This document shows positions 24,260 through 26,402 of a stretch of 26,554 nt of DNA, piece after piece; the first letter of the stretch is position 1; each line of letters opens with the position of its first letter. Under the pieces are notes generated by a model that did no database searches, had not been told where the DNA came from, and saw nothing but the letters and a program-made list of their open reading frames with translations. The DNA lies in the IMG/VR virus record IMGVR_UViG_3300042452_001130, positions 1 through 26,554 of that record. One strand, 5' to 3'. The position numbers were made by a program, and so were the translations under genes. The stretch comes from a virus.

Positions 24260-25113
24260 GCTTTCTCTCCTTGTTCTTGGGGTGGCAGGGCATAGGTGAG
24301 CTGCGCCGAGCGCGAGGTGGCTGGTCGCTTCAGCTTTTCCATGAGTCTGCCAAGGTGGGGTTCTTCGATTTGTTCAAGTCGTCCGGACCGGTCTTTGGCT
24401 GGGAAACCATATGGGTTCAGAGTGTGGCAGACGAAGGCGCGGAAAGACTTGCCTTCACTGGCTGGAATATCCGCCATGGTGATCACCTGATCGACGATAC
24501 CGGGTAATTCGAGGCCGGTCTTTGACCCTTCAATCTGGGGAACAAAATGCCGCCGGTTAAAATCATCGAGCTTTTCGTCAAGAATGCCTACAAACCAGAT
24601 GTTCTTGCCACGGGTGTGCTGCAGGTGCGTCAGCCAGCCGATCATTTCCTGACCCTGCAAGCCGTAAGCGCCCCGAGTGTCTGGTTTTCCCGTTTTATCA
24701 CTGAAGGCCTGAGGCTGCCCCTTGCACCATTGAAAGCAAAGCCGCCCTGCGACCGTTATTGAGTCGATAAAAACGGTCTCGTAGCGGTCAAGCCCTCGAG
24801 CTTCGCCGTACTTCTGGCACACGGCTTCAAAATGAGCCTGACTGTAGACCTGATCATCGCGTAGCGCCGGGTTCGAGCCACCGATAAACACAGCGAAGTC
24901 TCGGCACTCCTGCCAGGTGCGTGGGCGAATGGTATCACCGCGCCATCCTTCAATGGCCAGATCGCCGGCTTCTAGGTCAAAAAACAGGGTCGTTTCGGCA
25001 GGAAGTGTCCACAAAAGAGAGGTTTTGCCGATCCCGGAACGCCCGAAAATACAACCTTTAATGCCCTTGCTTTCTTTCAGGCGTTCATCGGCGGAGATAA
25101 TTGGCAAACTCAT
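24256..25113 (-). CDS. Sak4-like RecA-fold ATPase (AAA_24 family)
   Basis: The 285-residue protein has Walker A GRSGIGKTS (residues 24-32), then LFFDLEAGDLAIEGW, a family landmark, and Walker B YETVFIDSITVAGR. A later KNIWFVGILDEKLDDFNR sensor-like strand and a HFVPQIEGSKTGLELPGIVD segment follow. These match the phage AAA_24/Sak4 group, single-stranded DNA annealing ATPases with a RecA core that work with a phage SSB. The downstream SSB-like gene supports that. The start overlaps the preceding small gene (ATGA). Confidence 0.9.
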   Translation of the reverse strand: MSLPIISADERLKESKGIKGCIFGRSGIGKTSLLWTLPAETTLFFDLEAGDLAIEGWRGDTIRPRTWQECRDFAVFIGGSNPALRDDQVYSQAHFEAVCQKYGEARGLDRYETVFIDSITVAGRLCFQWCKGQPQAFSDKTGKPDTRGAYGLQGQEMIGWLTHLQHTRGKNIWFVGILDEKLDDFNRRHFVPQIEGSKTGLELPGIVDQVITMADIPASEGKSFRAFVCHTLNPYGFPAKDRSGRLEQIEEPHLGRLMEKLKRPATSRSAQLTYALPPQEQGEKA

Positions 25114-25403
25114 TGCGCACCTGCCTTGCGGGACAGTGCATCAATGATGTTTTCTGAACCCAGCGCGCCATGTTTGCGGGCTTCGTTATAAAGCTCCTTA
25201 ATGGCCATCTCTCTGCGGCGAATGACGCTGCTTTCCTGATCAAGTGCCTGTGCGGCAAACGCCAGATCATCCAGTGTCGCCTCCGACACAGGCTTAGTGG
25301 TTTCCTCAGTAATGGCACCCAGCGCAGGGATGCGAATAAACGCCGGGATATGCTGAGCGTAGAACTGGTCTTTCACCAGCTTTTGCAATGTTGGTTTGAA
25401 CAT
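25110..25403 (-). CDS. Hypothetical protein at the start of the recombination operon (97 aa)
   Basis: I choose ATG 25403-25401, since AGGAGG lies five bases upstream; a GTG one codon earlier is too close to that site. The product starts MFKPTLQKLVKDQFYAQHIP, then AFIRIPALGAITEETTKP and a helical charged part (LDDLAFAAQALDQESSVIRR, REMAIKELYNEARKHGAL). I do not recognise a family. As the first gene after a structured noncoding region and coupled to the Sak4-like gene by ATGA, it may be an accessory of that ATPase, but no function is visible in its sequence. Confidence 0.72.
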   Translation of the reverse strand: MFKPTLQKLVKDQFYAQHIPAFIRIPALGAITEETTKPVSEATLDDLAFAAQALDQESSVIRRREMAIKELYNEARKHGALGSENIIDALSRKAGAQ

Positions 25404-25575
25404 CACGACCTCCTATTGGTTGAGAAAGTGCTCTTTGGTCTTGTCTTTGCCGGCTGCCGGGTTCTGACGCCGCCCAAAGAGCAAGGCGGTCGCGTTATTT
25501 CCTCAATGATTGCTCAATCGAGGTCTTGTATTCCCGCGAGAACCCGGCATGTTTTTCATGCCTTCATAGGGTTAC
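25404..25575 (-). promoter_or_regulatory. Structured noncoding region with interleaved perfect 10-bp inverted repeats
   Basis: Minus-strand RNA from this gap can form several stems. GCCGGGTTCT (25548-25539) pairs with AGAACCCGGC (25465-25456). Inside it are CCTCGATT...GAGG (about 25524-25501) and CCGCC...GGCGG (about 25489-25470). The latter's loop holds TGCTCTTTGG (25483-25474), complementary to CCAAAGAGCA (25438-25429), 14 bases before the AGGAGG of the next gene. A further GGCATG/CATGCC hairpin (25562-25546) shares three bases with the first stem. No convincing protein reading frame with a start was found. Probable cis-acting leader or small RNA. Confidence 0.6.
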
Positions 25576-26163
25576 TTACCGAGACGCTTCAAAAAACGTC
25601 GGTGAGACCGGATTCGGGAGGTAGTCGGTGATGTGCCTTACGGATAAAGCGGCGCGTAGCTCGTGCATCACTCCATACAAGGTGGCACGGGGTGTACCGC
25701 GCAGGCGCGAGATTTCCGTCAGGTTGAATGTGCGTAGGTCAATCAGGAGGAACACCAGACGCGGTGGCATGGTTTCCACCGCTCGTTCCAGATCAATGCG
25801 CAGATCGTGGGCTGCTTGGTCTGGCGAGTCGGTATCTTGTAATTCATCGTCCTCCCCGTCATTATCCGCGAGCCAGGCATCCAGCGATACGATGGTCTCG
25901 CCGTGCCCTCGTTTTTGGCTGCGGGCTGTCTGGATAAGGCTGGCGCATTTATGATTGAGAATGCGGTCGATAAACGTTGACCATTGTGCTTTGCTCGGAT
26001 CAAAATCCTTGATCCGGGCAATAGCATCGAGCATAATCTCTTGCTCAAGGTCTTCAATTTCCATACCGTTGATGGCAGGATGCCTTATCAGGCTGCGGGC
26101 GTGGTATTTGACTTGGGTAACAAGCAGGGTGTTTAGTCCTTCATAACGGTTTAAGCTCTTCAT
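25576..26163 (-). CDS. Sigma-70-like RNA polymerase sigma factor (phage type)
   Basis: I start at ATG 26163-26161 (MKSLNRYEGLNTLLVTQVKY) because the upstream in-frame extension would translate a terminator hairpin. The 195-residue product has a region-2 pattern, SLIRHPAINGMEIEDLEQEI followed by MLDAIARIKDFDPSKAQWST and FIDRILNHKCASLIQTARSQ. After an acidic linker (DNDGEDDELQDTDSPDQ) comes a region-4 helix-turn-helix, MPPRLVFLLIDLRTFNLTEI and SRLRGTPRATLYGVMHELRA. It probably directs polymerase to phage promoters, possibly late ones. The ribosome site is weak (GAAAGACGAAAC). The sigma assignment is good at pattern level; target promoters are unknown. Confidence 0.82.
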   Translation of the reverse strand: MKSLNRYEGLNTLLVTQVKYHARSLIRHPAINGMEIEDLEQEIMLDAIARIKDFDPSKAQWSTFIDRILNHKCASLIQTARSQKRGHGETIVSLDAWLADNDGEDDELQDTDSPDQAAHDLRIDLERAVETMPPRLVFLLIDLRTFNLTEISRLRGTPRATLYGVMHELRAALSVRHITDYLPNPVSPTFFEASR

Positions 26164-26187: not shown

Positions 26188-26229
26188 CCGCCACGTGGGC
26201 GGGACAACATCGAATGGTGAAAACTCACC
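26188..26229 (-). other. Two small hairpins in the sigma gene leader
   Basis: CCGCC/GGCGG (26188-26192 and 26198-26202) and GGTGA/TCACC (26216-26220 and 26225-26229) form short perfect inverted repeats 25-65 bases before the sigma start. They may be protein- or RNA-level control sites. Nothing else recognisable lies in the leader up to the terminator-like hairpin. Confidence 0.35.
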
Positions 26230-26276
26230 GGAGAGCGGCGGAGTGGGGTCTAAAACCAGACGCAAAAATGCAAAAC

Positions 26277-26298
26277 GCCCCGGCTGGCGGGGCTTTTT
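26277..26298. terminator. Bidirectional terminator-like hairpin
   Basis: GCCCCG-GCTGG-CGGGGC is a six-bp GC stem with a five-base loop, followed on the plus strand by TTTTT. On the minus strand it is followed by TTTTG and ATTTTTG. It sits between the sigma gene leader and the AT-rich region of the DUF262 gene. It could stop transcription across the junction in both directions. Confidence 0.6.
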
Positions 26299-26335
26299 GG
26301 GGTGCAAATTTTTTTGGGATTTTTTTTTAGTTTCT

Positions 26336-26351
26336 CAGTGAAATTTCACTG
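26336..26351. promoter_or_regulatory. Perfect 16-bp palindrome, operator-like
   Basis: CAGTGAAATTTCACTG reads identically on both strands. It follows two long T tracts (7 and 9 bases within 26309-26328) and lies about 50 bases before a TATAAT box, so it could be an operator for the DUF262 gene or for leftward transcription. No T run follows closely enough for a terminator. Confidence 0.5.
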
Positions 26352-26402
26352 GCGATAAAAATCAGCATAAACTCTGGTCGAATTCACCTTCTGCTGTATA
26401 AA

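Follow-up and report, generated by a model that had tools for sequence, protein, structure and literature searches.

The 172-base gap between a sigma-like gene and a recombination/replication operon in the window—the whole stretch of 26,554 nucleotides analysed here, a 26.5-kb phage fragment whose main genes all lie on the minus strand—most probably (about three chances in four) encodes a C4-like antisense RNA of about 100 nt: a divergent member of the sRNA-Xcc1 family, whose P3 loop would lower translation of the next gene by pairing at or near its ribosome-binding site. Antisense repression of the operon headed by the 98-aa ORF, with genes for a Sak4-like annealing protein, a helicase, a Cas4-like exonuclease and a primase/helicase, would be the best explanation of the locus. 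This reading is carried by what can be observed in the sequences: the structure, the homology, the covariation of loop and target in the family, and the gene context (Table 1).

Table 1. Features of the locus, in window coordinates.
Feature	Position	Strand	Basis or remark
Structured gap	25404-25575	(-)	172 bases, between sigma-70 region 2 gene and 97-98-aa ORF
Upstream gene, sigma-70 region 2	25576..26163	(-)	PF04542 3.5e-7, phrog_1740
Presumed target gene, 97-98 aa, first in operon	25110..25403	(-)	phrog_36009
Shine-Dalgarno AGGAGG of the 98-aa gene	25409..25414	(-)	sequence
Core antisense-type RNA, RF02221-like three-way junction P1-P2-P3	25447..25552	(-)	RF02221 and R2 matches
P1 5' strand TGCCGGGTTCT	25539..25549	(-)	11 bp perfect; compensatory changes in relatives
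P1 3' strand AGAACCCGGCA	25455..25465	(-)	perfect complement of TGCCGGGTTCT
P2: CGCG/CGCG base, internal loop AATACAA-ACC...GG-AATA, distal stem CCTC/GAGG	25491..25538	(-)	invariant columns and covariation
P3 hairpin CCGCC/GGCGG, antisense loop TTGCTCTTTG	25470..25489	(-)	all five pairs vary on both sides
Target site CCAAAGAGCA	25429..25438	(-)	10-bp complement of P3 loop; kept in clade
GGCATG/CATGCC hairpin overlapping P1	25546..25562	(-)	not conserved
Terminator in sigma-gene leader	26277..26293	(-)	clade-conserved

The original prediction described two perfect 10-bp inverted repeats interleaved in the gap, one arm lying in a hairpin loop and pairing with a site 14 bases before AGGAGG. Both repeats are present, that of P1 being one pair longer than stated (11 bp); the second joins TGCTCTTTGG (25483-25474) to CCAAAGAGCA (25438-25429) over 10 perfect bp. 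They do interleave, TGCTCTTTGG forming the loop of the CCGCC/GGCGG hairpin, and the end of CCAAAGAGCA is indeed found 14 nt 5' of AGGAGG, this Shine-Dalgarno (SD) being itself unpaired in the window; the duplex between the loop TTGCTCTTTGG and CCAAAGAGCA amounts to -17.0 kcal/mol. That two such repeats are unlikely by chance holds as well: dinucleotide shuffling of the 172 bases, repeated 20,000 times, gives 157 sequences with one perfect 10-bp repeat, none with two and none with the interleaving. The minus-strand RNA folds with a z of -4.34, equally stable shuffles being 0 out of 200.

The lowest-energy nested fold sacrifices P1 for a helix which also joins CGCGACC to GGUCGUG around the start codon; it was rejected, the start-codon pairing being lost in relatives. 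The GGCATG hairpin, proposed as a mutually exclusive alternative, does exist at 25562-25546, but not as a switch arm, since it is down to 4 bp or absent in relatives. A protein-coding reading was likewise discarded: no codon pattern is seen, the clade has cores of 102, 100 and 89 nt among others, with differences not divisible by three, and covariation is found in the stems.

At curated thresholds Rfam gives nothing in the window. When the search is extended to E 10, RF02221 (sRNA-Xcc1) fits 25447-25549 over the full length of the model, with 37.7 bits and an E of 2.5e-5, under the curated cut-off of 53 bits; a member of the same clade (L056) reaches 43.3 bits. The model R2, for which only loci beyond the window's clade were used, finds the window at 25451-25552 with 56.5 bits and an E of 1.7e-11 (a rough value), and the window RNA shows the RF02221 three-way junction with its P2 core AUACAA-ACC...GG-AAUA. 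From the RF02221 fit and the R2 match the window RNA, judged by its sequence, is a divergent member or a very close relative of RF02221; this membership and the C4-like antisense logic were not visible to the author of the original prediction.

The same RNA is found at the same place in closely related phages (L002, L003 and L004, the homologues of the 98-aa protein in the two latter being 48-49% identical), and the window locus has no nucleotide relative in named phages or plasmids. A pattern search with the shared core brought further phage and genome loci, several above the RF02221 cut-off and the best at 80 bits; the pattern AATGCAA was abandoned, its matches arising mostly by chance. About 40 phage and prophage loci were gathered for the family. 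Besides, an 83-nt chromosomal subtype of RF02221 (L303, L309, L314, L319, L328-L348) is dispersed in many copies through single Xanthomonadaceae genomes, one Luteimonas having 7. Almost every copy has a loop of its own with an upstream target to match, while SD pairing is mostly absent. Tandem or paired copies also occur within one phage (L018, 9899-10103; L044, 7835-8438), as with the clustered Xylella copies.

The structure alignment comprises 38 diverse members. Pairing is maintained in 94.7% of its cells, 14 of the 21 pairs show changes on both sides (5 out of 5 in P3), and compensatory cells number 173 against 60.7 after shuffling; the signal is gone when partners are slid by one to three columns. 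The covariance test suggested originally, with compensation-free disruption of the stems as a counter-indication, thus finds stems that vary with compensation. As P1 pairing served as a filter when choosing the aligned loci, the covariation of P1 alone is partly circular; the tests on P2, P3, the loop and its target, and the upstream copy described below are not. The family stems contain many G-U pairs, which indicates that the element acts as RNA and not as a DNA cruciform.

Loop and target also change together. At 36 de-replicated loci the P3 loop was set against the 38 nt that precede the next start codon: loops score 17.35 with their own SD region and 11.51 +/- 0.44 when swapped (z 13.3, 0/20,000 permutations), and for half of them no foreign target fits as well as their own. 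Loop-target compensation is directly visible between near-identical loci: in L019, L032 and L053 the loops TCTAGACA, CTTGACA and CTTACGA face the SD regions TGTCTAGGAG, TGTCAAGGAG and TCGTAAGGAG respectively, and L232 and L247 combine loop and SD as GTCTGACGG/CCGTCAGGAG and GTCTAGCGG/CCGCTAGGAG.

Outside the window clade most loci have a second copy of the target core upstream of the RNA, usually ending in ...AG-CGG and followed in many loci by a terminator; the loop matches this copy too (z 11.4, 0/20,000, 29 loci). Chromosomal Xanthomonadaceae copies kept the upstream match (z 9.0), the downstream SD match being weak (z 2.6). A second determinant lies in the junction that follows P3; its pairing sites are just 5' of the upstream copy (z 10.5) and, before the next gene, 5' of the SD (z 6.1). 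The upstream GCGG can either pair with the following CCGC or free it for formation of the terminator, so that binding at the upstream copy could decide between read-through and termination. An attenuator, as proposed originally, does fit many relatives, namely those with a terminator fused to the upstream target copy; at the window locus it is unsupported because no terminator adjoins the RNA. On an Oxalobacter contig (L210, 5396-7330) two copies of the RNA lie about 1.8 kb apart with loops CACTTTG and CTGATTG, and each loop fits the targets that flank its own copy, upstream as well as downstream.

The window clade is a variant of this layout, with no adjacent upstream target copy (z -0.3) and no second determinant at the junction. 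The loop is nearly invariant within it, so that the loop-target covariation rests on the relatives. Throughout the close clade loop and target pair over at least 8 bp; in L022, L038, L054, L092 and L108 the pairing is kept over 10-12 bp, the site lying some 17-19 nt before the SD. In the sister loci L003, L004 and L370 it is the SD proper, CCAAGGAGC(A), to which the loop is complementary, and L056 carries both kinds of site. An upstream target in the sigma leader, CCAAAAAGC before the terminator at 26293-26277, was considered and rejected: its pairing is only 4-6 bp in relatives and is not specific. This terminator is possibly the displaced counterpart of the upstream target, which the pairing does not support. 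Palindromes of the type GGTGAnnTTTCACC flank it in the window (26194-26380) and in the relatives L022 and L056; these are likely repressor operators. Upstream, relatives encode a LexA-like repressor and an integrase of serine-recombinase type, as judged from ORF sequences only, which suggests temperate phages.

The genes that follow the RNA in the family are often antirepressors. Domains found among 37 of them are Bro-N (6), KilA-N (4), pRha (3), P22_AR_N (2) and ANT (2), and 11 of the 37 match a PHROG anti-repressor Ant family. In named phages the RNA, unannotated, directly precedes an annotated ant: Haemophilus phage Aaphi23 (86 bits), where gene q lies upstream, Escherichia phage Rac-SA53 (78 bits), and PhiR5_2, whose two copies score 73 and 69 bits. 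Target-antisense-target triads are readable in named phages, e.g. in Aaphi23 the upstream CAAACAG-CGG, the loop CTGTTTG and the SD CAAACAGGAG. At another locus (L221, 2337-2634) the gene under the RNA encodes a CsrA-family protein, not an antirepressor.

The 98-aa ORF has no Pfam match and belongs to no known family. Its AlphaFold2 model is small, helical and confident (pLDDT 87), with no fold match in the PDB and one weak partial match among viral models. At least 141 relatives of the gene exist in IMG/VR; among 80 of these the RNA lies upstream of about a dozen, all at least 46% identical. Since few relatives of the gene carry the RNA, the control module seems to be exchanged between phages.

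We propose that the RNA is transcribed as part of the operon transcript and may be cut from it. P1, P2 and P3 would present the P3 loop to a site just upstream of, or on, the next ribosome-binding site; the pairing, either in cis as a pseudoknot or in trans after release, would hold down the translation of the first early gene, presumably the 98-aa gene in the window phage, until some moment of relief. What the original prediction put forward, a riboregulator or a processed small RNA whose loop forms a pseudoknot with a downstream site, is supported through homology and covariation—its processing being presumed—and the interpretation given there is borne out in part. In most relatives the layout is completed by an upstream target copy, often terminator-fused, with the downstream target over the Shine-Dalgarno of a gene that is often an antirepressor; in the window clade the RNA would act from behind the sigma-like gene on the 98-aa gene opening the recombination/replication operon. 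More widely, we lean with somewhat less assurance towards sRNA-Xcc1 being a widespread phage immunity system, a C4-like antisense RNA equipped with both an upstream target-terminator and a downstream SD target and re-specified copy by copy as loop and targets co-evolve; in the window clade it would have moved behind a sigma-like gene, and from antirepressor control to that of recombination/replication.

The conserved P2 invites another explanation, namely a ligand- or protein-sensing leader of the riboswitch type, in which the AAUACAA/GGAAAUA internal loop would bind something and the loop-downstream pseudoknot would be the expression platform. The corresponding internal loop AATACAA-ACC...GG-AATA is conserved across relatives (alignment A3) and nearly invariant across divergent hosts, partly since the search pattern required it, and a loop-SD pseudoknot resembles those of translational riboswitches. 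However the platform loop varies freely together with its own target, most members have a second target copy upstream, needless for a riboswitch, and the regulated genes are often phage antirepressors belonging to no metabolic pathway, so we consider such a sensor unlikely.

We give still less credit to the kind of RNA that sRNA-Xcc1 of Xanthomonas and Xylella has been proposed to be, a free trans-acting small RNA with its main targets elsewhere, whether in the host or among other phage genes. In its favour, sRNA-Xcc1 is a stable 88-nt RNA (PMC2996969) and Xylella copies are expressed (PMC12189769), but the loop of each copy fits its own neighbours better than the targets of other copies, and both L210 copies match their own SD. 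A DNA-level element (an origin or protein-binding palindromes), or repeats arising by chance, appears very improbable: although operator-like palindromes do lie nearby, upstream of the sigma gene, the link to the next gene's ribosome-binding site is strand- and position-specific, the covariation with its many G-U pairs is family-wide, and the shuffles speak against chance.

The antisense reading gives a testable function to an Rfam family of open role, whose copies in Xanthomonas and Xylella were so far interpreted as virulence or vesicle RNAs. With the target-antisense-target layout, sequence alone suffices to predict the target of each copy; different loops within one genome further suggest orthogonal immunity specificities between co-resident prophages. 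The copies in the named E. coli phages Rac-SA53 and PhiR5_2 bring the question within reach of laboratory strains.

With RF02221, a small RNA of Xanthomonas integrons and plasmids, the window RNA shares the three-way junction, the AUACAA...GG-AAUA core and a P3 with variable loop; the model matches some phage relatives above its cut-off, whereas the window, with its longer P2 arm, stays at 37.7 for a cut-off of 53. The open-access papers searched locate sRNA-Xcc1 next to symE or within genomic islands and treat it as a small RNA linked to virulence or found in vesicles: a trans sRNA, not an antisense RNA of phage operons. The antisense triad was not found for it in that literature, and an earlier statement in subscription literature is possible. 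One report lists C4, isrK and sRNA-Xcc1 matches side by side in one Xylella strain (PMC12189769), which is consistent with a shared role.

Among the precedents for the proposed mechanism, P4 CI is a processed RNA between the upstream and downstream complementary sites seqA and seqC (PMC4825925); the family has flanking complementary sites as well, but control in P4 is by transcription termination, of which the window shows no sign. Gifsy-1 IsrK, with STnc1160, has a terminator after the upstream RNA (PMC4825925), and isrK has no Rfam match at the window. Another precedent is C4 of phages P1 and P7 (RF01695; c4-a1b1, RF03163), listed by Weinberg et al. (PMC2864571). The C4 model RF01695 finds neither the sRNA-Xcc1-type family nor, at E <= 10, the window, nor do the family models R1 and R2 match phage P1, and C4 RNA is devoid of the AUACAA/GGAAUA P2 of the sRNA-Xcc1-type family. 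C4 RNA is a substrate of RNase P. Its b2 target is on the ribosome-binding site; the window target ends 14 nt before the SD, and at L003, L004 and L370 the SD itself is the target; C4 controls an antirepressor operon, the window's target gene has neither known family nor known fold, and relatives have antirepressors. Unlike C4, the window is without adjacent upstream target and second determinant. On the other hand, like the window RNA, C4 has a closing stem and two hairpins, the second of which bears the antisense loop; the two determinants of the family, the P3 loop and the junction after P3, resemble a'/b' of C4; and the order a1/b1 - c4 - a2/b2 - icd - ant in the phage P1 record, with one target upstream and the other downstream before icd-ant, is the plan that the sRNA-Xcc1-type family shares.
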